DNA of 63,227 nucleotides from Leucobacter sp. Ag1. GTDB taxonomy: Bacteria; Actinomycetota; Actinomycetes; Actinomycetales; Microbacteriaceae. This document shows, piece by piece, positions 1 to 19,449 of the stretch. Every line of letters starts with the position of its first letter. Positions within the stretch are counted from its first letter, which is position 1. Made by a program: the position numbers and the translations under genes. The stretch spans positions 1 to 63,227 of the forward strand of contig NZ_LAYO01000093.1 in assembly GCF_000980875.1 (NCBI RefSeq), written 5' to 3'. The notes under the pieces are model-generated. The model was not told the origin of the DNA. It worked only from the letters and a program-made list of their open reading frames with translations, and did no database searches.

Positions 1-927
1 CCGGTGCCCGGAATCGAAGGAGAGCACGAGCATCTCACCGATCTGCGGTTTCGGCGGCGCGGGAGCGATCGGGGCGTCGACCGCGACGACCCCGGCCGGC
101 AGCGGAGCGGACGCCGGTGCCGGTGCCGGTGCCGCACCCCCGTGCGGCGCGACGGGTGGAGCCGGCTGCGCCGGAGCGAACGGAGCGATCGGCGCGGACG
201 GAACGGCCGGAGCCGTCGCGACCGGCTGAGGCGGGTGGGCACCGGCGGCGGGCACCGCGGCCTCCGCCACGGGCGCGCTCTGCGCCCACACCTCGGCGTT
301 GCGCGACCAGGCCTCCCGCTCGGCCTCCGACGGGACGCGGACGACGAGCGTGCGCCCGGCGCGGTCGGCCCAGCTGCGCCCCATGCGCGTCGGATCCGCC
401 GCGCTCGTGGCGACCACGATCCACCCGCCGATCAGGGCGACCAGGCTCGCGGCCCCGGTGATCAGGCCGCGCACGAGGTTCCGCCCGACACCGGGCGAGA
501 AGGGGGCGTCGTCGCGGGCGGTGCGCTGCCGCAGCAGGAGGTTGCCGAGCGTGGCGCCAGTGCGCGCTTCGAGCACGAGCTGGATCACCGCGACCTCGAG
601 CAGCACGAGGACGCCGAGCAGCGCGCTGCGGGTGAGGCCGCCCACGACCGCCGCGATCACCAGGGTCACCGCCGCATCGATGGAGAACGCGGCGATCCGA
701 GCGCCGGTGCTCGCGGGACGCGCCCACGCACGGGAACGCGCCAGGGCGTTCGAGAGACGGGCCGACGGATCGGGCCGGCTCCCGCGGGGAGCCGCGGCGT
801 CGCGCCCCGCCTCCCGAGCGAGCCGCTGCCGGGTCCGCTGGGTCTGCTGAGCGGTCTGCGATACGGGCGCCTGCACGGGGTTCGAGCGCCGACGCGGACC
901 GGCCGGATTCGGCGTGTAATCGGACAT
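1..927 (-). CDS. RDD-domain membrane protein, 3' end cut off by window edge; probable C-terminal FHA domain
   Basis: Open from the ATG at 927 to the window edge, 309 codons without a stop, so the C-terminus is missing. A basic cytoplasmic head (1-70) is followed by an RDD domain: Arg77 and Asp84 in the first helix, then further membrane segments to about residue 175 and Asp188 in a WADRAG motif. An Ala/Pro-rich linker (about 205-290) leads into a strand (LVLSFDSGH) that looks like the start of an FHA phosphothreonine-binding domain; that reading is inference because the sequence stops there. Its ATG overlaps the stop of the upstream EccD-like gene (TGATG), so the two are translationally coupled. 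With a Ser/Thr kinase encoded nearby, an FHA module would be the natural reader of its phosphorylation. Confidence 0.8.
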   Translation of the reverse strand, partial: MSDYTPNPAGPRRRSNPVQAPVSQTAQQTQRTRQRLAREAGRDAAAPRGSRPDPSARLSNALARSRAWARPASTGARIAAFSIDAAVTLVIAAVVGGLTRSALLGVLVLLEVAVIQLVLEARTGATLGNLLLRQRTARDDAPFSPGVGRNLVRGLITGAASLVALIGGWIVVATSAADPTRMGRSWADRAGRTLVVRVPSEAEREAWSRNAEVWAQSAPVAEAAVPAAGAHPPQPVATAPAVPSAPIAPFAPAQPAPPVAPHGGAAPAPAPASAPLPAGVVAVDAPIAPAPPKPQIGEMLVLSFDSGHR

Positions 928-2255
928 CAGGTGAGCACCCCTCGCAGCAGATCCAACGTGCCCGCGGCGAGCAGTCCGGCCGGGAGCACCAGTGCGATCG
1001 CGAGACTATCGACGATGTCGCCCGTCCGCGACCACCCGAGCGAGCGTTCGCCGCGCGCGAGCGGCAGCACCGCGGCCGCGGCGACGAGCGCGGCGAACAG
1101 CAGCGCGCCGGCTCCGATCGCGGCTCCCGCCGCCGAGGCCTGCGGCACGACGACCGCTGCGAGCAGGAGGAGCCCGATCACCGCCGCGGCCCGGGGCGGG
1201 ATGCGCAGCGCGGGCGCCGCCGTGCGCCGGGAGGTGAGCAGCAGCGCCAGCACCGCAAGCAGCACGTAGACCATCGCGGAGATCCGGGCGACCGGATCGG
1301 GACCGACCAGCGCCGGCGCCGCGGCGGGCAGCCCGGCCCCGGCGAGCACCGCGAGCATCAGGATCGCCGAGTCGAGACGGGCTTCGGCTGCGGCGACGAT
1401 CTCGCGCACGCGCTGCTCGTCGATCCGGTCGATCGAGACGGGGACGCGGCCCCGCACCGTCCACCGGAGCACCATGAAACGGCCGTAGTCGATGTGATAG
1501 CCCGGCTCCACGCCGACGAGGAGGCTGGGCGCGGCCCGGATGCCGACCACCGCGATCGCGGACGCCGCGATCAGCAGCTGATTCGGCGCCCATCCGAGCA
1601 TCGGGCCGGTCAGCGCCAGAGCCGCGAACAGCGCCGCGATCACAACGACGGGGGCCGCCGCCGCGCGGGCGCGCGCCGTCCGCGCGACGACCATCAGCAG
1701 GGCGGCGAGCACCGCCATCGCCGCGCCCGCGACCGCGAAGGCGAGCACCGGTGCGTCCACGAGGATCGTCAGCGCGCCCAGGCACGACCCGATCCCCGCG
1801 AGCACCAGGGAGGCGGCGGCGCCGATGTCGCCGGTTCCGCCGCGCGCGACGCCGAACACCATCGAGACCAGCGCGGCGAGCGCGAGCACGCCGGCCGTCG
1901 GCCACCGCAGCCGCTCGTCTCCGACGGCGAGCATCGCGGCGACGATCCCGAAACCGACCAGCGCCCAGGGCAGCGGGTTCACGGATCCGCCGGCCGTCGC
2001 GCGGTCGATCCGCCGGGCGGGCGTCGCCGCGGGTCCGGCGACGGCGTACAGGCCGCCCTCGAGCAGCTGCGCGGCGGGGGTGCCGAGATCCACCGGGGAT
2101 CCGTCCGGTCCCTGGACCCGGGAGCCGGCCCCGAGGTGCACGCCGATGGACGCGAGAGCCCCGACGAGCGCCTCGCCGCGCGGCATCGCGAGGTCGTGAC
2201 GCCGTCCGGCCACATCGATCACGATGCGACGCAACTGCGGCATGGGGTCGGTCAC
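927..2255 (-). CDS. EccD-like T7SS membrane protein (second EccD paralogue)
   Basis: About 442 residues. An N-terminal ubiquitin-like segment (RRIVIDVAGRRHDLAMP onward, about 5-80) is followed by roughly eleven hydrophobic helices broken by one polar cytoplasmic loop in the middle (around GYHIDYGRF to VREIVAAAEARL). This is the EccD/YukD-plus-membrane plan. It is divergent from a second EccD gene that starts at 2407. GTG 2255 is preferred over upstream codons because a TACACT -10 box ends 7 nt before it, which would give a leaderless mRNA, and the upstream extension is low-complexity. EccD forms the membrane vestibule of ESX translocons as a dimer. Function in secretion is inferred from family and neighbours. 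Confidence 0.75.
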   Translation of the reverse strand: MTDPMPQLRRIVIDVAGRRHDLAMPRGEALVGALASIGVHLGAGSRVQGPDGSPVDLGTPAAQLLEGGLYAVAGPAATPARRIDRATAGGSVNPLPWALVGFGIVAAMLAVGDERLRWPTAGVLALAALVSMVFGVARGGTGDIGAAASLVLAGIGSCLGALTILVDAPVLAFAVAGAAMAVLAALLMVVARTARARAAAAPVVVIAALFAALALTGPMLGWAPNQLLIAASAIAVVGIRAAPSLLVGVEPGYHIDYGRFMVLRWTVRGRVPVSIDRIDEQRVREIVAAAEARLDSAILMLAVLAGAGLPAAAPALVGPDPVARISAMVYVLLAVLALLLTSRRTAAPALRIPPRAAAVIGLLLLAAVVVPQASAAGAAIGAGALLFAALVAAAAVLPLARGERSLGWSRTGDIVDSLAIALVLPAGLLAAGTLDLLRGVLT

Positions 2256-2262
2256 GCGACTC

Positions 2263-2268
2263 AGTGTA
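2263..2268 (-). promoter_or_regulatory. Probable -10 box for the EccD-like/RDD operon (leaderless)
   Basis: On the minus strand the hexamer TACACT lies 7 nt before the GTG at 2255, the distance expected between a -10 element and the transcription start. The transcript would begin at or next to the start codon. No good -35 is visible. Confidence 0.4.
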
Positions 2269-2349
2269 GCGTCGGGTCCGACGGGATCGGGGCCGGATCC
2301 GTATGCCGGAACCGGATCCCGCCCCGCCATCCGGCCCGAGAAACCGGGT

Positions 2350-2355
2350 TAGGAT
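2350..2355 (+). promoter_or_regulatory. Possible -10 box for eccD-eccB-mycP
   Basis: TAGGAT sits about 50 nt before the GTG of eccD, followed by an AGGAGG ribosome site at 2397-2402. The -35 is not recognisable, so this is only a candidate. Confidence 0.3.
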
Positions 2356-2406
2356 ACTTGCGCGCGGAGCAGCCGATTTCGTGTCGACATCACACAGGAG
2401 GTACGC

Positions 2407-3744
2407 GTGAGCGTTGAGGCAGTCGACCCGAGTGCCGTCGTGCGGCTCTCGGTCGTTCACGCCGAGCGCCGCATCGACCTGGCCGTGCCCGGGCGCCTCC
2501 CCCTGCTCGAGGTGCTCCCCGGCGTCGCCCGCGGCCTCGGCGTGCTCGACGCCACGCTGCTGCACGGAGGCTATCGACTCACCCGCTCGGACGGCACGGA
2601 GCTCGATCCGACCCGCGGCGCGATCGCGCAGGGCATCGACCAGGGCGAGATCCTGACCCTGACCCGGGGCCAGCTCGTCGCGGTACCGCGTCGCTACGAC
2701 GACGTGGTCGAGGCGGTGGTCGACGCGACCTCCGCGCATCACGCCGCCTGGCGCCCCGAGGACGCGGCCCGCACGGCCGTCGCGATCAGCCTCACCCTCG
2801 TCGGCCTCAGCGCGATCATGCTCGCCCTGCAGCCCGCGGGCTCGCTCCTGCCCGCGATCATCGCCGGAACGGGCACGATCGTCCTGCTCGCCCTCACGGC
2901 CGCGCTCGGCCGGCTGGCCCAGCCGGAAGCCGGGCTGGCGTTCGGGATCGCCGCAGCGGGATTCGCCGGCCTCACCGGATACCTCCTGGTCCCGGGCGGA
3001 TCCCTCTGGGGGTTCCCGCTCGCGGCGGCCGGACTCGGGGGCATCGTCGGCGGCGGCGCGGCGTTCCTGCTCGCGGCGAAACCGGCCGAGATCCTCGCGC
3101 TCCCGATCGCGCTCGGCATCGCGGTCGGCCTGCCTGCGGGGATCGTCGGCCTCACGGGGGTCGACCCGACCGGGCCCTACGCCGTGATGGTGGCGTGCGC
3201 CGGGCTGCTCGCGGGCGCGCTGCCCTGGCTGACGCTCAGCAGCACCCGGATCCGGGTCATCTCGCCGACGACGGAGCTCGAGATGTTCGACCCGCCGCAG
3301 CCCATCGATCCCGAGCGCGTCGCCGCCCGGGTCGACGCCGGGCATCGGCTGCTCGTGGCCCTGCGCGTCGCCTTCGCCCTCTCTGTCCTGATCGCCGCAC
3401 CCCTCGTCTCGGGCTCGGGCTGGATCGGCACGATCCTCGTGCTGACGTGCGGGACCGTGCTGATGTTCCAGTCCCGCCAGTCCGCACGCCGCGCCTCCGT
3501 CATCGTCCTCCTCGCCGGCGGGACCGCGATCCTCGCCGTCGGCGGGCTCGCGGCGATCCTCGACCAGCGCGAGCAGGCGCCCCTGCTGCTGATCGCGCTG
3601 CTGGTCGCGACGGGCATCGTCACCGGGCTGACCCTGCTCAGCACCCGGGTCCGCATGCGCCTCACCGCGCTCGGCGACACCGTCGAGGTGATCCTGCTGG
3701 CGCTGCTGCTCCCGCTCGGTGCACTCACCGCTGGGCTCGCGTAG
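2407..3744 (+). CDS. eccD: T7SS integral membrane protein EccD
   Basis: 445 residues from a GTG with an AGGAGG site 4 nt upstream. Residues about 8-90 form the ubiquitin-like cytoplasmic domain; from about 120 there are roughly eleven hydrophobic helices with a polar loop near residues 280-320 (TELEMFDPPQPIDPERV), the normal EccD architecture and length. It is first in a rightward operon with eccB (2-nt gap) and mycP. EccD pairs with EccB, EccC and EccE in the ESX inner-membrane complex; only EccB and MycP are visible here. The divergent paralogue at 927-2255 shares the plan, so the pore may contain two different EccD chains. Confidence 0.88.
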   Translation: MSVEAVDPSAVVRLSVVHAERRIDLAVPGRLPLLEVLPGVARGLGVLDATLLHGGYRLTRSDGTELDPTRGAIAQGIDQGEILTLTRGQLVAVPRRYDDVVEAVVDATSAHHAAWRPEDAARTAVAISLTLVGLSAIMLALQPAGSLLPAIIAGTGTIVLLALTAALGRLAQPEAGLAFGIAAAGFAGLTGYLLVPGGSLWGFPLAAAGLGGIVGGGAAFLLAAKPAEILALPIALGIAVGLPAGIVGLTGVDPTGPYAVMVACAGLLAGALPWLTLSSTRIRVISPTTELEMFDPPQPIDPERVAARVDAGHRLLVALRVAFALSVLIAAPLVSGSGWIGTILVLTCGTVLMFQSRQSARRASVIVLLAGGTAILAVGGLAAILDQREQAPLLLIALLVATGIVTGLTLLSTRVRMRLTALGDTVEVILLALLLPLGALTAGLA

Positions 3745-3746
3745 GC

Positions 3747-5087
3747 ATGGCGACCAAGAAGGACCTGCTCGAGGCGCAGAGTTTCAGCAAGGCGCGACTG
3801 CTCTCGGCGTTCGTCGGCGGCGCCCCCGGCGGTAAGGAGCTCGAACCCGCCAAGCCGCTGCGCGCCGTGTTCGCGGGCATCGCGCTCACGGCCATGGTGA
3901 TCCTCGCCGGCGTGTTCATCGGCCTCAAACAACCCTCGCTCCCGAGCGGCTGGCAGAACAACCGCCTGATCGTGGCGAGCGACACCGGTGCGCGCTACGT
4001 CAGCGTCGACGGCACCCTGCACCCCGTGATCAACACGGTCAGCGCGCGCATGCTGATCCCCGCGAACGAGTTCGCCATCATCAGCGTCAAGCAGCAGTCC
4101 CTCGACGGGATCCCCATCGGCGGGACGCTCGGGATCCTCGGCGCACCGGACACGCTTCCGAAGGCGAGCGCCCTCGACGGGACGGGCTGGCGCGCCTGCT
4201 CGACGGCGGAGACCACCGAGGTGCGCGTCGGCGGCCAGCCGCGGACCGCCGCCCGCGACGCGGAGGGCATCGTCGTCGAGGCCGACGGCAAGACCTACGT
4301 GGTCACCGCAGGCACCAGCCTGCTCGTTCCGGCGGAGCACCGCACCGCTGTGCTCCGGGCCATCGGCCTGGACACCGCGACCCCTGTCCCGGTGCGCGGC
4401 GAATGGCTGGCCCTCTTCGCGAAGGGCGACGACCTCTCCCCCATCGTGCGCGCGGGCGGCGGCACGGTCGCCGGCGTCGGCCTGCCCGCGGGATCCGTGA
4501 TCCACTCCGCCGGAACCAGTGAAGCCAAGCAGTACCTGCTCACCGGCGACGGGAAGCTCGCCCCGCTCAGCCCGCTGGCGTATCGGCTCTACCGCCTGGG
4601 CCTCGGAACCGGGCCCGGCGGTGGCTCGCTCGGGGAACCCGTCGAACTGAGCCCGGCCCAGATCGCACCGCTGCCGACGGCAGATCCGGTCGCGCCCGAG
4701 GGCTGGCCGGAGGACGGTCTCGTGCCGCTCGCCGGCGTCTCGGCGCCCTGCGCCACGCTCGCGGGTGAGCGCTCCGATCAGCGCACGGTCCTCGCCGCGG
4801 CCGGCGGATCGCGCAACGCCTCCTCTGACGCGGCGGCAGGCAGCACCGAGGTCACCGTGGCGAAGGACGGCGGAGCGCTCGTGCGCGGCGGCTCGGCCGG
4901 TACGCTGACCCTCGTCGACGGCAGCGGCACCGCGTACGCGATCCCGGGATCCGTGAAGACCGGTGCCGCCCGGCTCGGCTACCGCAGCACCGATGTCGAC
5001 GTGCTCCCCGCGCCGTGGCTCCAGCTGCTGCAGGCGGGACCGGCGCTCACGCCCGAGGCTGCCGGTGCGACGCCGGAGGGCCAGTAG
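3747..5087 (+). CDS. eccB: T7SS membrane/periplasmic core protein EccB
   Basis: 446 residues. A short cytoplasmic head rich in charged residues (1-37), one membrane helix (about 38-60), then a long external part made of repeated beta-rich modules. Cys151 and Cys335 are the pair that forms the stabilising disulfide in EccB family members. The ATG at 3747 follows the eccD stop after 2 nt and starts with MATKKDLLEAQ, typical of EccB; an in-frame extension back to 3195 overlaps eccD and is rejected. EccB joins the inner-membrane complex to the outer envelope, and MycP, encoded next, stabilises this assembly in mycobacteria. Confidence 0.93.
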   Translation: MATKKDLLEAQSFSKARLLSAFVGGAPGGKELEPAKPLRAVFAGIALTAMVILAGVFIGLKQPSLPSGWQNNRLIVASDTGARYVSVDGTLHPVINTVSARMLIPANEFAIISVKQQSLDGIPIGGTLGILGAPDTLPKASALDGTGWRACSTAETTEVRVGGQPRTAARDAEGIVVEADGKTYVVTAGTSLLVPAEHRTAVLRAIGLDTATPVPVRGEWLALFAKGDDLSPIVRAGGGTVAGVGLPAGSVIHSAGTSEAKQYLLTGDGKLAPLSPLAYRLYRLGLGTGPGGGSLGEPVELSPAQIAPLPTADPVAPEGWPEDGLVPLAGVSAPCATLAGERSDQRTVLAAAGGSRNASSDAAAGSTEVTVAKDGGALVRGGSAGTLTLVDGSGTAYAIPGSVKTGAARLGYRSTDVDVLPAPWLQLLQAGPALTPEAAGATPEGQ

Positions 5088-5096
5088 GACCGCGGC

Positions 5097-6383
5097 GTGG
5101 ACCGGAAGCAGACCCGTCTGAGGATCGCCGCCGCGCTCGTCGCGCTGCCGATCCTCGGCACCGCGCTCACGGGACCCGCCTCCCCGCTGGCGGTGCTGTC
5201 CCCGCTGGCACCCGTTCCGGCGTCGGCGGCGGACGAGTGCACCATCGGGGTCATGGCGCGCCTGCCCGGACCGCCCGTGGCGTTCGCCGAGATGGGGCTC
5301 CCGGCCGACGGACGACGGTACACGGGCGCCGGCATCACCGTCGCGATCGTCGACTCCGGGGTCGACGCCTCCCGCCCGCAGCTCACCGGCGCCTTCGCCC
5401 GGGGCAGCGAATCGCTGATCTCGGACGGCGAGCGCTCCGACGGGCTCGGAGATTCCCAGGGCCACGGTACGGCGCTCGCCGGGATCATCGCGGCTCGCCC
5501 CAGCCCCACCTCCGGCGTGGTCGGCATCGCGCCCGACGCACGGATCATCTCGCTGCGCGTGTTCCGGGACGACAGCCAGCAGAGCATCGACAAGGGCCTC
5601 GGACCGGACGCCGGACGGATCGCCACGGCGATCCGGAAGGCCACCGACCGCGGCGCACGCGTGATCACCGTCGCACTCAGCGACGACGTCGACACCCCCG
5701 CGCTGCGCGATGCGACGAACTACGCGACGTCGCGCGGCGCGCTGGTCGTCGCGAGCGCGGGCAACCGCGACACGACCAAGCAGACCGAGGATTCGCCTCG
5801 ATTCCCGGCAGCCTATCCCGATGCGCTCGCCGTGACGGCGGTCGGCCCCACCGGCCTCGCCACGGCCTCGTCGATCCACGGACCGCACATCGACGTCGCG
5901 GCCCCGGGCCAGAACGTGCTCACCACATCGAGAGAGGGCGGGGACTGCCGCTACGCGACGGAGTCCCCATCGTCGAGCTTCGCGACGGCCTACGCGGCGG
6001 GTGCTGCGGCCCTCGTCGCCCAGGCCTACCCGAGCGAGACCCCGCAGCAGTGGGCCTACCGGCTCGAGGCGACGGCGGATCGTCCCGACCCCGACGCGCG
6101 CGATGACCGGATCGGCTGGGGCACGATCCGACCGGCCGCGGCCCTCGGTCTGCGGCCGAGCAGCAGCACCCGGGGCCCGGTCAGTCCGTTCGTCGACACC
6201 AGCGGTGCGGCACGCGCCTCCGTGTCCACTCGGGTCACCGCGCACGAGACGCGCGCCGACGACATCACCTTCGTCGCGGCGCTCGTCCTCGGTGCCGGAG
6301 GTCTCATCGCGGTGTTCGCGCTGGCCGCACGGACCCGGCGCCGCCCGGGCGAGGGACGGCGGGACGGCGGCACCGCGGCCTGA
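5097..6383 (+). CDS. mycP: Mycosin MycP, T7SS-associated subtilisin-like protease
   Basis: 428 residues, GTG start 9 nt after eccB. Signal peptide (about 1-45), S8 domain with Asp86 (AIVDSGVD), His123 (GHGTALAG), oxyanion Asn223 (SAGN) and Ser294 (SSSFATAYA), all catalytic residues in place. A C-terminal helix (about 393-413) followed by an Arg-rich tail anchors it, as in mycosins. Mycosins sit on the outer face of the ESX complex; they process some substrates and are needed to keep the complex stable. The stop TGA (6381-6383) directly touches the stop of the convergent gene (6384-6386), leaving no room for a terminator between the two operons. Confidence 0.93.
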   Translation: MDRKQTRLRIAAALVALPILGTALTGPASPLAVLSPLAPVPASAADECTIGVMARLPGPPVAFAEMGLPADGRRYTGAGITVAIVDSGVDASRPQLTGAFARGSESLISDGERSDGLGDSQGHGTALAGIIAARPSPTSGVVGIAPDARIISLRVFRDDSQQSIDKGLGPDAGRIATAIRKATDRGARVITVALSDDVDTPALRDATNYATSRGALVVASAGNRDTTKQTEDSPRFPAAYPDALAVTAVGPTGLATASSIHGPHIDVAAPGQNVLTTSREGGDCRYATESPSSSFATAYAAGAAALVAQAYPSETPQQWAYRLEATADRPDPDARDDRIGWGTIRPAAALGLRPSSSTRGPVSPFVDTSGAARASVSTRVTAHETRADDITFVAALVLGAGGLIAVFALAARTRRRPGEGRRDGGTAA

Positions 6384-7217
6384 CTAGCCGAAGGCGAGGA
6401 CCGCGACCCCCCAGAGGCCGAGCACCGAGACGACGACCGCGACGCCGAGCCCGATGATCGTGCCGAGCCCGAAGCGCCGGTTCGCGCGAGCGGTCGAACG
6501 CAGCCCGTCACGCTCGGCCGAGAGCGGCTCCGGCACCGACGCCGGCGGCGGACCGAAACGCTCCGAGAGGGTGCCGCCCTGGCTCGCGTCCGCCTCGCTG
6601 AGGCTCCGCACCGGGCTCAGGACCGGGATGCCCGGGGCGACGCCCCGCCGCGGCAGGGTGTGCTCCTCGGGCGGGGTCGGCGCGTCGGGGATCCGCAGCT
6701 TCGCGTCGAGCGGCGACTTGAACATGCGCGCGACGACGTCGGCCGGCAGCTGCCCCGCGGACGGCTCCTCGATGGGCGGTGCCGGGTTCGCCGTCCCGCT
6801 GCGGGTCGACCGCCCCGAGTCCTCCCCGATCGGCGCGGACCGCGACGTCCGATCGGGTTGCGGCGCCTGATCCGGTTGAGGCGTCTGATCGGATCGCGGG
6901 GGCCGCGCGACGACGATCGTCCCATCGTCGTCGCCCACCGGAGCGGGGCCCGCGCTCCGCGGCGGGCGAGCCGCCACGATCGTCGCGTCGTCCGGCGCCG
7001 CCGGTTCTACCGGCGCCGCCGGCGCTGCGGGTTCTGCGGGTTCTGCGGGTTCTGCGGGTTCTGCCGATGCTCCGGCGGGTCCCGCGCCCTCCGCCGCGAT
7101 GCGGGCGCGCGGCGCGACCACGGTCGCGTCGAGCTCGTCCTCGCCGTTCTGGCCGGCGCCCGGGCCGAGTCCGCTCGGGCCGGCGCCGGTTCCGGCTCCT
7201 GCGCGTTCTTCCGTCAT
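6384..7217 (-). CDS. Ala/Pro-rich tail-anchored protein with repeated acidic-Thr-hydrophobic motifs
   Basis: 277 residues, no recognised enzyme fold. The first 245 residues are disordered-looking (many Glu-Pro-Ala repeats at 52-74) and the last 25 (about 251-275) are one membrane helix, so the bulk should be cytoplasmic. Three similar motifs carry Thr32 (LDATVVAPR), Thr79 (DDATIVAARPPR) and Thr100 (DDGTIVVARPPR). Acidic residues before and hydrophobic residues after the Thr resemble sites used by actinobacterial PknB-type kinases and read by FHA domains. It is the last gene of the operon that starts with a Ser/Thr kinase; its ATG overlaps the preceding stop (ATGA). A role as a phosphorylated scaffold is inference. 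Confidence 0.7.
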   Translation of the reverse strand: MTEERAGAGTGAGPSGLGPGAGQNGEDELDATVVAPRARIAAEGAGPAGASAEPAEPAEPAEPAAPAAPVEPAAPDDATIVAARPPRSAGPAPVGDDDGTIVVARPPRSDQTPQPDQAPQPDRTSRSAPIGEDSGRSTRSGTANPAPPIEEPSAGQLPADVVARMFKSPLDAKLRIPDAPTPPEEHTLPRRGVAPGIPVLSPVRSLSEADASQGGTLSERFGPPPASVPEPLSAERDGLRSTARANRRFGLGTIIGLGVAVVVSVLGLWGVAVLAFG

Positions 7218-11064: not shown

Positions 11065-12053
11065 ACCGAGCCGTTCTCCTGGGGTGCGGCGACGTCGAGC
11101 AGGATCTGGCCGAGCACCTGCGCCGCCGTCACCCCGTCGAACTCGGCCTCGGGCTCGAGCACGAGGCGGTGCGTCAGTACCGGCATGGCGAGGTCGCGGA
11201 CGTCGTCGGGAGTGACGAAGTGCCGACCGCTCGCGGCCGCCCAGGCGGAGGCGAGGCGCACGAGCGACAGTGCACCGCGCACGCTCGCGCCGAGACGCAC
11301 CTCGTTCGCACGACGGGTGGCTTCGACGAGGCGCACCGCGTACTCGGCGACGAGCGGGCTGACGTGCACGCGGTTGATCAGGTCCTGCGCCTGGGTCACC
11401 ATGCCCGTCGTGACGACCGGTGAGAGGGGCTGCTGATGCGAGCGGTCGCCCTGCAGGATCCGGGTCATCGCCGCCTGGTCGGGGTAGCCGATGGAGGTCT
11501 TCACCATGAACCGGTCGAGCTGGGCCTCGGGCAGCCGGTAGGTGCCCGCCTGCTCGACCGGGTTCTGGGTCGCGATGACGAGGAACGGGCTGCCGACGTC
11601 GTGCGAGGTGCGGTCGACCGTGACCCGGCCCTCCTCCATCACTTCGAGCAGCGCCGACTGGGTCTTCGGGCTGGCGCGGTTGATCTCGTCGGCCAGCACG
11701 ACGTTCGCGAAGATCGGGCCCGGATGGAATTCGAAGGCGCCCGCGCGCTGGTCGAAGACCGACATGCCGGTGATGTCGCTCGGCAGCAGGTCCGGGGTGA
11801 ACTGCACGCGCGAGAACGAGCCCTGGATGACTTCGCCGAGCGCGCGGGCGAGCGCCGTCTTGCCCGTCCCCGGCACGTCCTCGAGCAGCACGTGGCCTCC
11901 TGCGAGCACGCAGGCGATCACCAGCTCGACCACGCGGCGCTTGCCGTGGATCGACTGCTCGATCGCGTCCGCCGTGGTCGAGAACAGGCGCGCGACCCAC
12001 TGGGCCTGCTCGGGTGAGATCGCCGTCGAGTCGGTCTGGGGCTGCGTGTTCAT
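11061..12053 (-). CDS. MoxR-family AAA+ ATPase
   Basis: 330 residues, the usual size. Walker A is GTGKT (62-66) in the segment LLEDVPGTGKTALARAL; Walker B is VLADEINR with Asp122 and Glu123; sensor and arginine-finger regions follow (ATQNPVEQ and the VTPDDVRDL helix). MoxR proteins are cytoplasmic ATP-driven chaperone-like enzymes that act on vWA or DUF58 partners; the partner is encoded next with a four-base overlap. The ATG lies 39 nt after the stop of the giant exoprotein gene, the only gap in this operon longer than an overlap. Confidence 0.93.
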   Translation of the reverse strand: MNTQPQTDSTAISPEQAQWVARLFSTTADAIEQSIHGKRRVVELVIACVLAGGHVLLEDVPGTGKTALARALGEVIQGSFSRVQFTPDLLPSDITGMSVFDQRAGAFEFHPGPIFANVVLADEINRASPKTQSALLEVMEEGRVTVDRTSHDVGSPFLVIATQNPVEQAGTYRLPEAQLDRFMVKTSIGYPDQAAMTRILQGDRSHQQPLSPVVTTGMVTQAQDLINRVHVSPLVAEYAVRLVEATRRANEVRLGASVRGALSLVRLASAWAAASGRHFVTPDDVRDLAMPVLTHRLVLEPEAEFDGVTAAQVLGQILLDVAAPQENGSV

Positions 12054-12092
12054 GCTGGGCCTTCTGCTGGGGAGAGGTGGGGTGAATCGAGA

Positions 12093-15000
12093 CTACGGGG
12101 TGGTGCAGACGTTGAGGGTGGCCTGTTGCAGTGCTTGGAACGAGCCGCCCCAGGTGATGGTCAACGGGATCAGCCCGTTGGCAGGCGTTCCTGCCTTCAC
12201 CGTCGCGTCCGGGGCTGCTGCCGCCGAAATCGTGAGGTACCCCTTGAGCTCGTCCGAGCTCGGATTTCCGGCGGATCCGTTCGTCAACGGGATGCATTGG
12301 CCGTTCGGCTTCGCCGTCACGATGGTCGGCGCGTTCCGCCATCTGACGTTCGCCTCGGCGGAGCAGGGGCTGTCGCCGTAGCACTGCTTGACTTTGAACT
12401 CCGCGGCCGAGGCAGGATCGATCGTGAACTCCTCGGTTCCCGTGTTGCTGTATATGAGCTTCGTGTCGGCTTCTTTCCCCTGCAGATCGAGCTTCGGAGT
12501 GCCATCGGGATTCTTGAGGAGGTCATAGATGACGCCGTCACCTGCCGCGGCCGGCGCGTTCGCGATCGTGTAGGTCACCTGCGGGGCTTGCAGCTGGCGC
12601 CCGATGAAGACCGGGTCGGACGTCCCGGAGCTCATACCGTAGTCGCTGCGTAGGCAGGCCATGGCGCTGATGAAGCTGTACTTCCGCAACCCGTCGAAGT
12701 CGGGGCTGCTCTGCCCATCTGCGAAACAATTCTTGGGGCCCTGGATCGCGTTCTTCCCGATCGTATAGCTCGCCGTGACGACCTCGGACGACTGTGCTCC
12801 GCTCCCGGAGTAGCTGACGTGCGCGGAGGTGTCGCCCGTGCTCGCGAGAGACACGGCGCCTATCACGGGCGCGCCGATCACCGTGCCGTCCTTGCGCGTC
12901 GCTTCACCCGTCCCGCTACCGCCTCCAATGTTGGGCAGATCGAACCGAGTGACCGGAGTCACCGTGAACGAGATCTCCCCCGCAGCCTGATCCGGGAAGT
13001 CCTTGGTGCCACCGGGTCCGGCGAGAGACCCTGCGTCCTGGCCGTTGAGTTGCAGCGCGAACTGCTTCGTGTCGTCGGACCCGCTCACGGTCAGGCGGAC
13101 CCCGCCCCGGTCGGTCCTCGTGTTCTGCGGGTTCTTGATCGGAGTCACCGTCACGGTCGGAGCCTTCGGCGGATCGTACGCCCACGCCGTCACGGCGGTC
13201 GAGGCCTGCGAGGATCCGACCGCGTTGACCGCCTGCGCGGTGAACTGGTGCTTCTGGCCGTTGCTCAGGTCGCCGGCCGTGCACTGGTAGGTCGCGGGTC
13301 CGACCGCGGCGCAGGATCCCGATCCGCCGCCCAAGAGGGTCACGCTCGTGACCGCCGGGTGCGCCTGCTGCGAGCCGAGCGTCACGGTGAAGCTCGCGCT
13401 GCTCGCCGTGTACCCGGTCTGCTGGATGCTGGGCGTGCCCGGCAGCCCCTGCGCATCGAACTCGACCGTGCCCTCGCCGGTGCGCCCCTGCGCATCGCGC
13501 ACGGTGAACCCGACCCGGCAGGTGCCGCCGATGCCGCGCGCGTTCGGCCAGGACACGGAGATGCCCGAGTCGCCCACCCGAGAGAAGGAACCGAAGGTGC
13601 AGGAGTCGCCGTTCACCGAGGCGAGCTTGAGGCCGCCTCCCGTCTTGCCCGCGAACGGGTCGTGCTCGCCGGCGACGCCGACGAGCTGCGCCTGGCAGGA
13701 GCTGCCCACGGTGCACTGCAGCGCGACGGTCCCGCCGCGCGGCAGGTCGCGCGGGGCCTGGCCGACCTGCAGGGTCAGCGGGGCTCGCGAGTCGCCCGCC
13801 CCGCTGACGGCGATGGACACCGTCTCCTGCGTGCCGGGTACCGCGTCCGCGCGCGCCGTCACGCGCAGCGAACTGCCGTTCTGCTGCACCTCGAACAGCG
13901 AGGTACCGCCCGACTCCGCGAAGCTCAGCTTGCCCGTGTCACCCTTGCGCCCGCCCTCCCAGGTCACCATGTCGGTGAGCGAGATGGTCTGCGTCGCGCC
14001 GGGATCGACGGTGCGGGTGAGCGCCTGCGCCTGCGCCACCGGCTGCTTGGGCACGATCACGACCGGAACCGGAAGCGCGGTCCAGCGGTCCTGACCGACC
14101 AGTCGGGCATCGATGAGGCAGCTGTCGGTCCACGGAGCCTCTCCGCCGGCCGAGTACCGGAGCCGGTCGCCCGAGACCGCCTGACAGCTCGCCTGCGCGC
14201 GTCCGACCACGAAGGAGCCCTTGCGCAGCTCGACCCGATCGCTCGGTCCGACGTCGACGAGGTCCGTCACATCGACCTCGGTCTGCTGGTTCTCGTCGAC
14301 CGTGAGCGGCTTCAGGCCGGGCTTCAGCGTCAACGGCAGCTCGTCGAGCGGCAGGATCACGAGCAGGCCGTAGGTCGCGACCTGCTTGCCCGAGGCGTCC
14401 GCTCCGCTGAGCTTGAACACCACGGTGTCGCCCTCCGCGCGGTACTGCCCGAGGATCCGGGAGCCCTTCACCCGGTAGTCGGCGGCCCCGCTCCCCCAGA
14501 TCGAGAGCTTCAGCTTCGACACGTCGCCCGTGGCCCAGCGGGTCTTGCCGGTGAGCACATCGACGCCCTTCGATGCGAGATCGGCCCGGTCGCGGACGTT
14601 GAGCACGGTGTCGCTCACCGCGGGCGCCTGCGCTCCGACGTGCTCGGAGGTCTGCACCACGATCAGTCCGTCCGCCGTGCTCTTGGTCTTGGCCGAGCGG
14701 ACCGTGTAGCGGAACGAGTCGGTGCCGAGCTCGCGGCCGGGCTCGATCGAGACCCGGCCCTGCTTCATCTCGGAAAGGTCGAGGCGCCCGGCGAGCGCCC
14801 GGTACGCGGGGTTCGTCTTCCCGCCCGGAAGATTCGGGGTCACGGAGGTGAGTTCGAGCGTGCCGCCCGACTGATCGACATCGTTGTCGAGCGGACTCAG
14901 AACGACCGCGTCGCCGCCCGGACCCACACGGAGCGAATCCGTCGTCGCGACGATGCCCGCAGCTTCCTGCTCGGGCAGCACGACGACGCCGAGCTTGCCG

Positions 15001-18000
15001 GTGCCGCGGGCGCCCGAGGGATCGACGACGGTGTACTTGAGCTGCTTCGTGCCCGATTTGGCGCCGGCCGCGGCGGAGACTTCGATCCCGGTGCCCGTGT
15101 CGTTCAGGGCCGCCACGATGCCGGATCCTTCTTCGGTCTGCACACCGGTGAGGCGCACCCGGTCGCCGTCGGGGTCGACGCCCGAGAGCGGGACCGCGAC
15201 CTGGGCCGTGGCCCCCGCTGCGACTCGCGCGGTGAGCGCCGCCGGCTGCGGATCCCGGTTCGCTCCGGTCGGCAGCACGGTCACGATCACGGCGCCGACG
15301 TCGCCGGAGGTCGGATCGCTCGCCCCGTACGCGGTGTAGCTGAGCCGGTACGTGCCGGGCTTCTTGGGCGCGAGGTAACGGAGCACGTTGCCCGAGGCGA
15401 ACGCGAGTTCGCCCTTGGTTCCCGAGCCGACGATCTCGGGCTGCAGGACCAGGCGCTCACCCGGAGCGGCCACATCGTTGTCGAGCACGCGGATATCGAC
15501 CACCGAACCGGCGCGAACGGTCGCGGTATCCGCGACGGCGATCACCCCCGAGGGTGCGTTCGCCGCGACCTGGAACACGGTCAGCTTGCCCGTCGCGGTC
15601 GTGCCGCCCTCGGCCACCGTGACATCGACAGCGCCGATACGGCCGGGCGCTCCGTCCGGGGTGCTTCCGGACACGTGCACCTTGGAGTGGTCGATCACGG
15701 AGGCCTGGAGCTCTCCACCGCCCGACTTCGCGCTCTGCACCGCGAGCGAGCGGGACCCGGCCCCGGGGATCGCGTCGAGGATCTCGACGGTCGTGTCGGT
15801 GAGAGGACGCACGAACGCGCGCAGTTCGGGAAGCGCGAGCGGCGGACCGGCCGGGGTCGCCGTGACGCGGAGCTGGCCCGTGACCTCGGTCCCGGTGGCC
15901 GTATCGCGGACCATCACCGAGACGGTCGTGCTGCCGGCCTGCGAGGCCTGCAGATCGATCGTGCCGTTCGACGTGTGCGGGGTGACGCGCAGATTGGGGC
16001 TCGGCGAGGTCGCGTCCAGCAGCGCGAAGCTGCCCGAACCGCCCGCCACCCGCTCGAGCGGCCGCACGGTCATGGTCTGGCCCACCCGCACCGTCGTCGC
16101 CGACGCGGTGAACTCGGCCGCCGCTCCCGGCTGCGCCGAAACGCCCAGGTTCCTGCGGGTCTGCTTGCCGCGGCTGTCGGTGACGGTGACCCGGAGCGTC
16201 ATCTCGGCCGCCCCGGCGTTGGGGTCGGTGTGCCGCAGCGCAAGACGCCCGTCCGCGGTCACCATGGCGCGCAGCGGATCCTCCTTGCGCAGCGGCTCGA
16301 CGCTCGTGAGAGTCATCACGTCGCCCTCGGGATCGACCCAGCCGTCGAGCAGCGGGGCGACGAGCGTGCCGCCGGGGGCGAGCGGAGGCACACGCCACTC
16401 GCGTCGGCAGCCATCGACCGGGCACCACGCCGGCGCGGTGTTCTCGGCCTCGGGCGCGACCCGCAGGGTCACCGTCGCCGGGTTCGAGGTCAGCGCGCCG
16501 TCGGTCACTCGGTAGGTGAACGTCGCGGTTCCGCTCGCCTTCGCGGCGACGCGGACCATGAGGGACTGCCCGTCGGGCATCAGCTCGAGCGAACCGAACG
16601 GCTTCGGCAGGCTGCTCGCGCCGAGGGAGTCCGGCACGACCGTCAGCACATCGCGCTTGTTGGGATCGAAGTCGTTGAGCAGGACCGGGAGCGGCGCCGA
16701 TGCGCCGGCTCGCACCCCGAAGGTGTCGTTCACCGCGGTCGGGGGTTGCTGATCGGTCACGTCGGTCACGACGACCGAGCCGCGATCCTGCTTGGGCGGA
16801 TCCGAGATGCTCCACTGGGAGAGCGGGATCCGCTTGCCGTCGGGCAGCGTCCAGAGCATGCCCGTGCGCATCTCGTTGAGCACGGCCCGGGAGCCGTTGC
16901 TCCGGATGGTCGGCTGGAGGTCGCCGGATTCGCGGGCGGCGTCGTCGAACGCCAGCGGCTTGTCGCCCTCGTTCGAGTTCCACAGCGTGCCCGCGCGCTG
17001 CCCCAGCCAGGCCGCGTAGACCGCGCCCTCGACCGCCGTCGGCTGCGCCGGCGCACCGTTCGCCTGCAGCACGCGCTTCGCCGTGCCGCCGGAGGACACC
17101 GCGAGGAGTCCGCCGGTGTCGGCGATGAGCACCGCATCGACCGCGGCGTCCTGGCCGCTCCGGCGTTCGCCGGCCGAGACCCGCTTCCGCTGCTCGGGAT
17201 CGAGGCTGCCCTGCAGCACGCCGGAACCCTCGAGCTTCACCGTGGTCTCGCCGCCGCCCGAGCGCCACAGTCGCCCGCTCTCGCCGTCGAGCAGCACCCA
17301 GTCGTCGCCGAGCAGCGCGAGCTGCGGGGACTGGAGCTTCCCCGCCGCATCGGGCACCGGGTCCGCGCGGCCGACGGGTTCGCCGGCGGCGATGTCGAAT
17401 CTGAGCACCGAGCCGTCGGAGCTGGAATATGCGCCGATCACGCCCGCCGAGGTGAGCGTGATCGCCGCAGCACGATAGCCGGCGTCCGCTCCGGCGGAAG
17501 GCTTCTTCTGCCCCTCACCGGAAGGATCGACGCGAACCAGCGACGACAATCGCCGCTCCAGATCCGCGGTGTCCGCAGTGCTCACGGCTGCGGCGTTCGC
17601 ACCGAGCCCATCCGTTTCGGACGGCGCGAGCTCGCCCGCGTAGACGGCCCCGGACTCGGTGCGGATCGCGACGAAGCGGCCGGCGCTCACGATGTCGCGA
17701 GTGCCCTCGGGCATGCGCACCGACTCCGCGGAATCCTGGGACTGCGCGGACTGGTTCGAGGCCGGCTGCGCCGACTTCGGGGGCTGCTCCCCGCCGCTCG
17801 TCGCGGGCTTGACGTCGAGGTCGACCGGGTTGGAGGGGTCGAGGCTCCAGGCCCTGCCGTTCCCGTTCGAGAGCACGGCGCCGCGACCGCCGCTCTGGAT
17901 GATCCCGCTCGGGTCCGAGACCTTGCGGACGAGATCGAGCTCCCCGGTATCGGTGTTCACCCGGGCGTACTGGCCCGATTCGCGCGCGACCCAGACCCCC

Positions 18001-18143
18001 GGTTCCTCACGCGGAGTCTGCCTCGCGTCGTATCCGCTCGCGATCACGGCGACCGTCACGACCAACGCGGTCACGACACCGCCGGCGATCCACCACTGCA
18101 GTCGACGGGGACCGCGCCGCTCGCCCGAACCCGCCGAGGTCAT
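12093..18143 (-). CDS. Giant membrane-anchored exoprotein with tandem Ig-like and FN3-like domains
   Basis: 2016 residues. One N-terminal helix (about 17-37) with a basic head before it makes it a signal-anchored protein with nearly all mass outside. Residues about 45-465 look like a beta-propeller or WD-like region (repeated 'VLSNGNGRAW', 'AVYAGEL', 'VLLDGES' strands). From about 470 to 1560 come around ten Ig-like or cadherin-like modules; several begin with an 'xVxDxxxVRAGxxVxxxVLxND' pattern. From 1560 to the end are FN3-like modules with many Cys, ending in TLNVCTTP. The ATG overlaps the kinase stop (ATGA). Possible roles are cell-surface sensing, adhesion or scaffold for the secretion system; the sequence does not decide. 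No LPxTG-type signal is present. Confidence 0.85.
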   Translation of the reverse strand: MTSAGSGERRGPRRLQWWIAGGVVTALVVTVAVIASGYDARQTPREEPGVWVARESGQYARVNTDTGELDLVRKVSDPSGIIQSGGRGAVLSNGNGRAWSLDPSNPVDLDVKPATSGGEQPPKSAQPASNQSAQSQDSAESVRMPEGTRDIVSAGRFVAIRTESGAVYAGELAPSETDGLGANAAAVSTADTADLERRLSSLVRVDPSGEGQKKPSAGADAGYRAAAITLTSAGVIGAYSSSDGSVLRFDIAAGEPVGRADPVPDAAGKLQSPQLALLGDDWVLLDGESGRLWRSGGGETTVKLEGSGVLQGSLDPEQRKRVSAGERRSGQDAAVDAVLIADTGGLLAVSSGGTAKRVLQANGAPAQPTAVEGAVYAAWLGQRAGTLWNSNEGDKPLAFDDAARESGDLQPTIRSNGSRAVLNEMRTGMLWTLPDGKRIPLSQWSISDPPKQDRGSVVVTDVTDQQPPTAVNDTFGVRAGASAPLPVLLNDFDPNKRDVLTVVPDSLGASSLPKPFGSLELMPDGQSLMVRVAAKASGTATFTYRVTDGALTSNPATVTLRVAPEAENTAPAWCPVDGCRREWRVPPLAPGGTLVAPLLDGWVDPEGDVMTLTSVEPLRKEDPLRAMVTADGRLALRHTDPNAGAAEMTLRVTVTDSRGKQTRRNLGVSAQPGAAAEFTASATTVRVGQTMTVRPLERVAGGSGSFALLDATSPSPNLRVTPHTSNGTIDLQASQAGSTTVSVMVRDTATGTEVTGQLRVTATPAGPPLALPELRAFVRPLTDTTVEILDAIPGAGSRSLAVQSAKSGGGELQASVIDHSKVHVSGSTPDGAPGRIGAVDVTVAEGGTTATGKLTVFQVAANAPSGVIAVADTATVRAGSVVDIRVLDNDVAAPGERLVLQPEIVGSGTKGELAFASGNVLRYLAPKKPGTYRLSYTAYGASDPTSGDVGAVIVTVLPTGANRDPQPAALTARVAAGATAQVAVPLSGVDPDGDRVRLTGVQTEEGSGIVAALNDTGTGIEVSAAAGAKSGTKQLKYTVVDPSGARGTGKLGVVVLPEQEAAGIVATTDSLRVGPGGDAVVLSPLDNDVDQSGGTLELTSVTPNLPGGKTNPAYRALAGRLDLSEMKQGRVSIEPGRELGTDSFRYTVRSAKTKSTADGLIVVQTSEHVGAQAPAVSDTVLNVRDRADLASKGVDVLTGKTRWATGDVSKLKLSIWGSGAADYRVKGSRILGQYRAEGDTVVFKLSGADASGKQVATYGLLVILPLDELPLTLKPGLKPLTVDENQQTEVDVTDLVDVGPSDRVELRKGSFVVGRAQASCQAVSGDRLRYSAGGEAPWTDSCLIDARLVGQDRWTALPVPVVIVPKQPVAQAQALTRTVDPGATQTISLTDMVTWEGGRKGDTGKLSFAESGGTSLFEVQQNGSSLRVTARADAVPGTQETVSIAVSGAGDSRAPLTLQVGQAPRDLPRGGTVALQCTVGSSCQAQLVGVAGEHDPFAGKTGGGLKLASVNGDSCTFGSFSRVGDSGISVSWPNARGIGGTCRVGFTVRDAQGRTGEGTVEFDAQGLPGTPSIQQTGYTASSASFTVTLGSQQAHPAVTSVTLLGGGSGSCAAVGPATYQCTAGDLSNGQKHQFTAQAVNAVGSSQASTAVTAWAYDPPKAPTVTVTPIKNPQNTRTDRGGVRLTVSGSDDTKQFALQLNGQDAGSLAGPGGTKDFPDQAAGEISFTVTPVTRFDLPNIGGGSGTGEATRKDGTVIGAPVIGAVSLASTGDTSAHVSYSGSGAQSSEVVTASYTIGKNAIQGPKNCFADGQSSPDFDGLRKYSFISAMACLRSDYGMSSGTSDPVFIGRQLQAPQVTYTIANAPAAAGDGVIYDLLKNPDGTPKLDLQGKEADTKLIYSNTGTEEFTIDPASAAEFKVKQCYGDSPCSAEANVRWRNAPTIVTAKPNGQCIPLTNGSAGNPSSDELKGYLTISAAAAPDATVKAGTPANGLIPLTITWGGSFQALQQATLNVCTTP

Positions 18144-19285
18144 CCGGCACCGCCGGTCAGCGCCCACACCACGACCGCGATCGCGGCGACGCCGGCGAGC
18201 GCGGCCCCGGCACCGATCAGCCCGGCGCGCAGGGGCGAAGCGGGCCGGTCGAGCAGCAGGCCGTCGTCATCGGTGCCGCGCTTCTGCGCGAGCATGTCGG
18301 CTCGGGCCTCGGCGCGGGTCGCGCGACCGACGGAGGTCACCACAGGGCCACGGGTGCCGGTCTCGACCGATTCGGTGCGCGGCACCCAGGCGTCGGGAGT
18401 CACCTCGAGCGGAGTGACGTCGAAGCCGTAGGCGCGCTGCAGCGCCTGCAGCGCCTCGCCGAACTCGGCCATCGACGCGTAGCGCTCGTGCGGCAGCCTC
18501 CGCAGCGCACGCGCGATGACCTCGTCGAAGTGTTCGTAGCCCTGCGCCCCCGGGATCCCCTGGTAGACCGCTTTGGCGATCCGCTCCGACAGCTTCGCAC
18601 GCGTGTTCTGCGCACGATCCGCGAGCTCGAACGGCGAGCGCCCCGAGGCGAACGAGTACAGGGTCGCGCCCAGCGACCACACCTCCGTCGCAACACTGCC
18701 GCTGCTCTCGAGCTGCACGACCTCGGGTGCGGACCACGGGATCGACATCGCGAGCTCGCCCTCCGCCTGCCGACCACCCAGCACGTGCGCGATACCGAAG
18801 TCGGACAGGGCGGGCTTGCCCAGCGTCGTGAGCAGCACATTGGACGGTTTGATGTCGCGATGCAGAACCCCGGAACGGTGCGCCGTCTCGAGCGCCCCGG
18901 CGATGCGCACTCCGGCGTCGAGCACGTCGACGAGCCGCGCCGGCTTGCCCTTGGTCAGCTGTCCGAGAGACCCCGGGCAGAACTCCATCGCAAGATAGGG
19001 GTGCCCTTCGAGCGAGATGCTCGCCTCGTAGATCGACACCACCGAGGGGTGGCTGCTGAGGCGGGCCATCACGTCCGCCTCGCTCTCGAACGTCGCCCGC
19101 AGCTCGGCACCGGCGCCGTCGCCCGCGACCGACCCGTTCAGCACCTTGATCGCGACCAGGCGGCGAGGCATGTCCTGCTCGTAGAGGAACACCTGCGCGA
19201 ATCCGCCGGCGCCCAGCGGACGCACGTAGCTGAAGCCCGGAATCGCCGGTGCGTTGATCGATGCGCGCGCGCTCACGACAGCCAC
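18140..19285 (-). CDS. Membrane-anchored Ser/Thr protein kinase
   Basis: 381 residues. The kinase domain starts near residue 18: glycine loop LGAGGFAQVF, Lys47 in VAIK, catalytic HRDIKPSN with Asp144, DFG at 162-164, APE at 186-188, so it should be active. The activation segment is short (about 20 residues). A linker (about 285-350) leads to a single C-terminal helix (about 356-376) and almost nothing outside, unlike PknB with PASTA repeats. The missing external sensor may be supplied by the giant exoprotein encoded next with a four-base overlap (inference). First gene of the six-gene operon; GTG start, with other GTG codons a few residues downstream possible. Confidence 0.92.
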   Translation of the reverse strand: MAVVSARASINAPAIPGFSYVRPLGAGGFAQVFLYEQDMPRRLVAIKVLNGSVAGDGAGAELRATFESEADVMARLSSHPSVVSIYEASISLEGHPYLAMEFCPGSLGQLTKGKPARLVDVLDAGVRIAGALETAHRSGVLHRDIKPSNVLLTTLGKPALSDFGIAHVLGGRQAEGELAMSIPWSAPEVVQLESSGSVATEVWSLGATLYSFASGRSPFELADRAQNTRAKLSERIAKAVYQGIPGAQGYEHFDEVIARALRRLPHERYASMAEFGEALQALQRAYGFDVTPLEVTPDAWVPRTESVETGTRGPVVTSVGRATRAEARADMLAQKRGTDDDGLLLDRPASPLRAGLIGAGAALAGVAAIAVVVWALTGGAG

Positions 19286-19326
19286 CGTCCGTGACCGCAG
19301 CGGGGAATGCGAGACATCATCAACTC

Positions 19327-19332
19327 ATACTA
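19327..19332 (-). promoter_or_regulatory. Probable -10 box of the kinase operon
   Basis: TAGTAT on the minus strand, about 42 nt before the kinase start codon and downstream of the rplA terminator. No clear -35 hexamer is seen at the expected distance. Confidence 0.4.
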
Positions 19333-19380
19333 AACGGTACCGGGAGTCCGGCAGCGCCCGCCGGGAATCTGTGGAAAAGC

Positions 19381-19416
19381 CGGAGGCCCCGGCAGTCGAA
19401 ACTGCCGGGGCCTCCG
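19381..19416 (-). terminator. Rho-independent terminator of rplK-rplA
   Basis: A perfect 16-bp GC-rich stem closed by a TTCG loop on the minus strand, followed by GCTTTTCC. It lies 34 nt after the rplA stop and separates the ribosomal operon from the kinase operon. Confidence 0.9.
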
Positions 19417-19449
19417 ATTCCGATCGCACGTCCTGCGGACGCGCCTCGA

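Follow-up and report, generated by a model that had tools for sequence, protein, structure and literature searches.

A PFNA-Type Kinase Operon Tail to Tail with a Type VII Secretion Operon in Leucobacter and Its Relatives: A Possible Phospho-Threonine Relay

Introduction

How secretion by a type VII secretion system (T7SS) of class T7SSa is switched on outside mycobacteria is, to our knowledge, little understood. The question arises in Leucobacter sp. Ag1 (Microbacteriaceae; NCBI RefSeq assembly GCF_000980875.1; 3.54 Mb in 111 contigs), where an operon led by a Ser/Thr kinase and a T7SS operon meet tail to tail. Both lie in the window analysed here, which is the whole stretch of 63,227 nucleotides from the first base of contig NZ_LAYO01000093.1 (hereafter C42). 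Why should a kinase operon and a secretion operon adjoin in this way? An initial annotation had seen in them a phosphorylation-controlled secretion or envelope machine, a reading that the comparisons reported below partly support: the tail-to-tail arrangement recurs in relatives, which suggests that phosphorylation may control the secretion machine.

The Two Operons

The minus-strand operon runs from position 19285 down to 6384, and the order and identity of its six genes, as initially annotated, were borne out by Pfam, NCBIfam and sequence reading. It begins with a Pkb2-like Ser/Thr protein kinase (18140..19285; PF00069, 2.5e-36), with a kinase domain at residues 20-270, the VAIK, HRD and DFG motifs and, by eye, one C-terminal hydrophobic helix; because no extracellular sensor domain was seen in it, it probably senses its signal through membrane partners. 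After it come a giant exoprotein of 2016 residues (12093..18143), with five Big_9 Ig-like stretches and an N-terminal hydrophobic anchor (by eye), a MoxR-type AAA+ ATPase (11061..12053; PF07726, 6.4e-63), a DUF58 membrane protein (9712..11064; PF01882, 6.7e-11), a multi-transmembrane protein of transglutaminase fold, Tgm (7214..9715; PF01841, 1.1e-8), and a membrane protein of 277 residues without a Pfam family (6384..7217), here called the Thr-motif protein, which carries three acidic-x-T-[VI]-V motifs in its low-complexity N-terminal part and a hydrophobic helix (by eye) at its C-terminus. The announced 4-base overlaps are present at four of the five junctions, the fifth (exoprotein–MoxR) being a gap of 39 bases, and the one-base overlap announced with them belongs to the RDD and EccD2 genes of the T7SS locus.

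The first five of these genes have homologs in the PFNA cluster of Bifidobacterium leontopitheci, with BLASTP E values of 3e-50 for the kinase, 4e-50 for the exoprotein against FN3 (about 1500 residues, 25% identity), 1e-112 for MoxR (51% identity), 1e-67 for DUF58 and 1e-20 for Tgm. In the bifidobacterial literature, the cluster is given in the order pkb2-fn3-aaa-atp-duf58-tgm (PMC8430577, PMC6803598), with additional prpC, hypothetical and fha genes as optional features, and is described as one transcript whose kinase phosphorylates MoxR in B. longum (PMC8430577). Given five homologous genes in the same order, the minus-strand operon is, by homology, a PFNA operon plus the Thr-motif protein, and is therefore not new in itself. 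Pfam found no fn3 domain in the window copy of the exoprotein, which is nevertheless homologous to FN3. No PP2C gene lies between Tgm and the Thr-motif gene (window 7214-7217), and PFNA membership stands all the same because prpC is optional; four Leucobacter loci (L098, L100, L101, L102) possess an operon PP2C, and FHA accessory genes also occur in relatives. The window operon thus differs from its bifidobacterial counterpart in lacking PP2C, in lying tail to tail with a T7SSa, and in bearing its Thr motifs on a separate membrane protein, whereas the bifidobacterial ones are found on an extension of MoxR.

That this operon converges on EccD-EccB-MycP was likewise correctly annotated, and the two abut with 0 bp between them, the stop codon of the mycosin gene ending at 6383 and that of the Thr-motif gene beginning at 6384. 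On the plus strand lie EccD (2407..3744; TIGR03920 over its cut-off, PF19053 at 3.3e-27, and PF08817 for a YukD-like N-terminal domain), EccB (3747..5087; PF05108, 2.4e-57, and TIGR03919 over its cut-off) and the S8 protease mycosin, MycP (5097..6383; PF00082, 8.9e-44, and TIGR03921 at 254.4 bits, under the cut-off of 278.75). Divergently from EccD, on the minus strand, is transcribed a second, divergent EccD that the initial annotation had left unnamed, denoted EccD2 (927..2330), which matched PF19053 below the cut-off (E 0.0025) and no NCBIfam family; a profile–profile comparison of EccD2 with EccD (21 sequences each) gave a probability of 98.8 and E 6e-17 over 417 columns. The EccD2 gene shares one base with the RDD gene (1..927, minus strand; PF06271, 1.2e-8), which runs past the contig edge at window base 1. 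The FHA domain suspected in this protein does exist: its FHA half (L087:102-440) is found on contig C52 of the same genome, where a genome-wide FHA search placed the domain at C52:168-398 (7.7e-9). The first 134 bases of C52 (L087:1-134) match window 1-134 with one mismatch, four bases from the window edge, and because this mismatch is near the tip, the assembly branched there, at a strain variant or a repeat. The overlap itself is a (CACCGG)n-rich linker.

Contig C52 continues the T7SS with three WXG100 genes, small proteins without a family over cut-off, and EccC (C52:7945-11901) with three FtsK stretches, and its far end holds the beginning of a DUF5684-like protein (E 1.3e-5, slightly below the cut-off). 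Genes beyond the window were called with a codon model trained on the window, which missed lower-GC genes. The T7SSa set of EccB, EccC, EccD, mycosin and WXG100 is accordingly present, split over the window and C52, and EccC, RDD-FHA and EccD2 adjoin each other in five relatives (G017, G037, G102, G025 and G118). Judged by its families, the secretion locus is a T7SSa with two different EccD proteins and an FHA reader. It shares the five components just named with T7SSa/ESX systems, and differs from them in its two EccD types, in the RDD-FHA protein within the operon and in a second mycosin in the substrate region. No EccE domain was found in the locus proteins scanned, a genome-wide EccE search not having been made; EccE is lacking in some ESX-4 systems.

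The second mycosin-like S8 protease lies beside a proline-rich protein (L087:4341-5933 and 5930-7246) that matches the T7SS signal weakly (E 0.013, below the cut-off), and two or three mycosin-like proteases occupy the substrate region of some relatives (G098, G047, G017). Away from the T7SS contigs, a 350-residue protein with an N-terminal WXG100 match (L091:6885-7937, on contig C33) is a candidate secreted protein. A rearranged order, with EccC downstream of mycosin on the opposite strand, was seen in a Leucobacter-like bin (L099) and in Microbacterium nymphoidis (L166).

Linkage of the Two Operons Across Relatives

The initial reading depended on the two operons staying together in other genomes, and linkage was indeed recovered repeatedly. 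EccB was found in 13 of 120 family genomes (14 loci), and in eight of these genomes, at eight of the loci, the window included, Tgm lies within 5.3 kb of it, tail to tail, as read by hand from two tables and drawn as gene maps. A wider genome scan with a clade EccB alignment, overlapping the family survey (L103 is G098, L171 is G102 and L151 is G019), showed Tgm downstream on the opposite strand in 24 of the best 80 of 106 loci; among these 80, six others have a PP2C (five with less than 4 kb of sequence left), 22 only a DUF5684-FHA or FHA match (some sequences being short), 18 none of the three, and 10 were too short. The linked loci belong to Microbacteriaceae, Cellulomonas telluris and a metagenome bin named Demequina lutea, and their EccB proteins are 44% to 67% identical to that of the window, whose nearest EccB relatives in scan and tree are Leucobacter, which fits Microbacteriaceae. 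Linkage recurring across three families rules out a coincidental neighbourhood. M. nymphoidis (L166/G143) adds one more case to the 24: Tgm and EccB share a contig there, with Tgm 12 kb further on and converging. Where the kinase operon is not adjacent, the T7SS often keeps an FHA gene alongside.

Part of the link is explained by shared ancestry, since loci of the same link state tend to group on the EccB tree: the state changes at least nine times, against a mean of 19.3 upon shuffling, with none of 500 shuffles as low, on a quick tree with long branches and 81 rows (25 linked, 35 not, 21 unscored, L166 being entered as unlinked). Tgm matches accompany EccB more often than its absence (8 of 13 genomes against 29 of 107, p 0.02, with kinship ignored and a Tgm match standing for PFNA); only the loosest Tgm threshold was used here, because the stricter ones are biased by the query genome having a T7SS. 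A separate observation, hinting at an older shared site, is that an rpsL-like gene adjoins PFNA in a Microbacterium (L200, G126) and the T7SS in a Demequina (L146), where PFNA and T7SS are apart.

Threonine Motifs, FHA Domains and the Phosphatase

The Thr-motif protein holds three acidic-x-T-[VI]-V motifs in 277 residues, compared with six in the 19,038 residues of the other called window proteins, and none of 500 shuffles of its sequence reached three; the patterns were written after the sequences had been seen, which counts against a phosphorylation reading. In all 24 linked loci the stretch from mycosin to Tgm encodes a protein with at least two acidic-Thr-hydrophobic motifs, in keeping with the candidate target proposed initially. 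The open reading frame (ORF) with most motifs was taken in each locus, 20 being recognised at once and four after a longer open-frame re-reading (L098 with five motifs, L101 and L102 with two each, and L104 with five, these in a single frame across 2 kb where more than one gene may lie). In bifidobacteria, the N-terminal extension of MoxR carries a Thr motif in 15 of 17 genomes, at least two in seven of the 17 and six in B. leontopitheci; these counts come from a looser pattern, applied to the frame open since the stop codon before it, and had no shuffle control. Pkb2 of B. longum is reported to phosphorylate MoxR as its substrate within the operon (PMC8430577).

On the reader side, 19 of 20 aligned RDD-FHA rows keep GR, SxxH and NG, the remaining one being out of frame. 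These residues of the binding loops are the phospho-Thr-binding signature of FHA domains. At E<=0.001 the window genome yielded two kinases, FHA domains in three places and a single PP2C, the second kinase being on contig C37. The PP2C is on contig C51, near genes reading as ATP synthase.

A Probable Pseudo-Transglutaminase

The transglutaminase-fold protein departs from its name. At the positions taken to be those of the Cys-His-Asp triad, all 30 rows that could be read, out of 31 aligned, have other residues in place of Cys and His (one row is partial, and G078 and L033 are the same gene). The bifidobacterial proteins of 17 genomes yielded 15 cores, which read GDSEQY, with no Cys, and none of the 17 has His at the second site. 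The only solved transglutaminase matched was TgpA (6g49, E 0.004), in an alignment that begins just past the Cys. The PFNA "transglutaminase" therefore looks catalytically dead both in the window relatives and in bifidobacteria; polymorphic toxins offer a precedent for transglutaminase domains that lose catalytic residues (PMC3482391).

A T7SSd-Like Operon Facing PFNA in Bifidobacteria

The genes on which PFNA converges in B. leontopitheci encode a kinase, a one-helix protein of 177 residues, an Ig-like protein of 2595 residues and an FHA protein with a motif array, a set resembling in architecture the TsdD, TsdH, TsdI and TseJ of T7SSd/e (PMC11217815). DUF6382, named for TseJ, matched two relatives weakly, below the cut-off, at E 0.0083 and 0.00066. 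A strong Tgm (E<1e-90) is present in 47 of 61 Bifidobacterium genomes and a T7SSd-type kinase (E<1e-190) in 13, and the two converge on one contig in four related genomes; the remaining kinase genomes comprise two undecidable at contig ends, three without a strong Tgm and four in which the two are far apart. A kinase–PFNA link throughout Bifidobacterium is accordingly rejected, and the four loci are counted as one event because the kinases of the other three are 80-81% identical to that of B. leontopitheci.

In one of the four (G177), an FtsK-type ATPase, a WXG100 protein and a T7SS-signal protein lie between PFNA and the kinase. The long ORFs of G120 and G165 included no FtsK-type ATPase, and the locus of G183 was mapped by tblastn alone, so that the idea of a full T7SSd at every convergent locus was also rejected. 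The B. leontopitheci genome contains, on another contig, EccD2-like, RDD-FHA and EccC genes side by side, and EccD-EccB-mycosin on a third record. The PFNA exoprotein of the bifidobacterial pair compared could not be aligned with the adjacent TsdI-like protein (E 0.21), and homology between the giant exoprotein and TsdI thus finds no support. As side observations, the T7SSd-like kinase, Ig-like and array-FHA genes are kept in L198/L199 and L222/L223, in which an FtsK-type ATPase was not seen, and G183, G165 and G177 have, ahead of the kinase on its upstream side, genes read by eye as rpoB/rpoC.

A Possible Relay and Its Alternatives

How can these observations be integrated? The proposal to which we give about an even chance of being right is that a phospho-signalling operon of PFNA type and a T7SSa make up a single superlocus, kept in many Micrococcales, in which a phospho-Thr/FHA relay gates secretion. 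In this relay the kinase, as writer, would phosphorylate the Thr motifs of the membrane-anchored Thr-motif protein, and FHA proteins, above all RDD-FHA, would bind the resulting phosphothreonines as readers. Docking of RDD-FHA would bring the T7SS membrane complex to a PFNA envelope complex, made up of MoxR-DUF58 as remodeller, the pseudo-transglutaminase as membrane adaptor and the Ig-like exoprotein as outer part, and this docking would gate or site secretion. PP2C, encoded near the Thr-motif gene in relatives and absent from the window locus, could act as the eraser that resets the relay. That the motifs are targets of the kinase, that RDD-FHA binds them and that secretion changes as a result are steps which we infer. 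In favor of the relay stand the recurrent linkage and its clustering on the EccB tree, the Thr motifs of the linked loci and of bifidobacterial MoxR, the reported Pkb2 substrate, the FHA residues kept in 19 of 20 rows, the neighbouring EccD2-like, RDD-FHA and EccC genes of B. leontopitheci, and PFNA facing a T7SSd-like operon in four related Bifidobacterium genomes.

Several observations weigh against this proposal. The link has been made or broken several times, at least five changes being forced by well supported branches of the EccB tree. Tgm homologs without EccB are common: a match (E<1e-60) is present in 29 of the 107 EccB-less family genomes and missing in five of the 13 with EccB, which speaks against a strict "one machine" reading, and, of nine of these 29 genomes that were fetched, eight have the order Tgm-DUF58-MoxR-exoprotein, including G014 and G096 of the same genus. 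Conversely, this T7SS without adjacent PFNA is present in Klugiella, Cellulomonas and the Microbacterium testaceum group, and in 16 of 29 genomes with a Tgm-less locus, a strong Tgm (E<1e-150) lies outside the fetched locus, once linked at 12 kb, 13 times on another contig or more than 100 kb off, and twice undecided (L118, L134); the other 13 have weaker Tgm matches only, although B. leontopitheci, with a real PFNA, is among them.

These facts favor the most serious alternative, a real possibility though one to which we would give well under an even chance, namely that two independent envelope machines share a neighbourhood as an inherited island: PFNA would be an adhesion or envelope chaperone with its own kinase, and the RDD-FHA of the T7SS would answer to another kinase, for which the one on C37 is available. 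Both frequent occurrence of either operon alone and shared ancestry of part of the link agree with it. However, it fits less well with linkage retained over three families at EccB identities of 44% to 67%, with a DUF5684-FHA or FHA gene after mycosin in the 22 further Tgm-less loci, and with PFNA facing a second, T7SSd-like operon in bifidobacteria. It is quite improbable, in turn, that FHA domains act mainly in cis, as in GarA/OdhI, where a phosphorylated Thr next to the FHA domain closes the protein; here a phospho-Thr would close DUF5684-FHA, the Thr-motif protein would be a competitor and the T7SS would not be the output. Such an arrangement is suggested by 14 of the 38 DUF5684 ORFs retrieved, in which a motif precedes the FHA core by at most 90 residues (the core being recognised by pattern in 20 of the 38), but the 20 rows of RDD-FHA, the reader that the T7SS operon encodes, all lack a motif so placed. 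Finally, convergent transcription without a terminator could couple the operons by mutual repression, as an envelope/secretion switch, an explanation we hold to be very improbable: the stop codons do abut, and no terminator-like site was found near 6383/6384 by an admittedly crude scan, yet the five relatives measured show gaps of 15 to 206 bases behind mycosin, so that the exact abutment is not kept.

Relation to Known Systems

The best reading in the light of known systems is that a phospho-Thr/FHA relay may work on the T7SSa much as proposed for T7SSd and T7SSe. With those systems, as described in PMC11217815, the window locus and its relatives share a Ser/Thr kinase, FHA, a giant Ig-like protein and single-transmembrane proteins with unstructured cytoplasmic parts, together with PP2C in the case of T7SSe. 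The likeness of the window's membrane kinase and giant Ig-like protein to T7SSd is one of architecture only. In contrast, the window core is a T7SSa (EccB, EccD, mycosin) with FHA on a separate RDD protein and not on the ATPase: EccC (C52:7945-11901) has no FHA domain, the genome-wide search having given its three places elsewhere, which rules out a T7SSd. The main text of PMC11217815 makes no mention of MoxR, DUF58 or transglutaminase, and the term "type VII secretion" has a count of 0 in the PFNA literature searched. In a literature search covering mostly titles and the beginnings of abstracts, with subscription papers largely outside it, no prior description of a T7SSa with RDD-FHA and PFNA was found.

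Two further systems offer precedents. In the threonine-phosphorylation pathway of the type VI secretion system, PpkA/Fha (PMC3953482), a kinase, an FHA reader and a phospho-Thr on a membrane part activate secretion, as would be the case here, although the secretion machine is unrelated. Phosphorylation of CFP10 by PknA (PMC10653824) illustrates that a Ser/Thr kinase can alter the output of a T7SSa, the target there being a secreted substrate.

Genomic Setting

Upstream of the kinase operon lie genes which read, by eye, as secE-nusG-rplK-rplA. Between rplA and the kinase gene, outside the sites of the terminator scan, a strong GC-rich inverted repeat (window 19286-19449, by eye) is probably a terminator.

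Significance

The locus provides a compact and testable set of parts (kinase, Thr motifs, FHA readers and, in relatives, PP2C) with culturable relatives, and it corrects two assumptions, as the PFNA "transglutaminase" looks dead and the T7SSa has two EccDs, the second below the Pfam cut-off. It also places a much-discussed bifidobacterial operon in a secretion context. The published host-immunity reading of PFNA does not obviously fit the relatives of the window, many of which are environmental by name. As a tentative extension, which we consider rather unlikely, PFNA might act generally in Actinomycetota as a phospho-relay module of type VII secretion, joined to a T7SSa in Micrococcales and to a T7SSd-like locus in a bifidobacterial group; the common code for the FHA readers of the secretion machine would then be a Thr-motif array that migrates between a membrane protein of its own, MoxR and a DUF6382-FHA protein. 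If this were true, gut bifidobacteria would have in their "immune-sensing" operon a switch for secretion or for the envelope.

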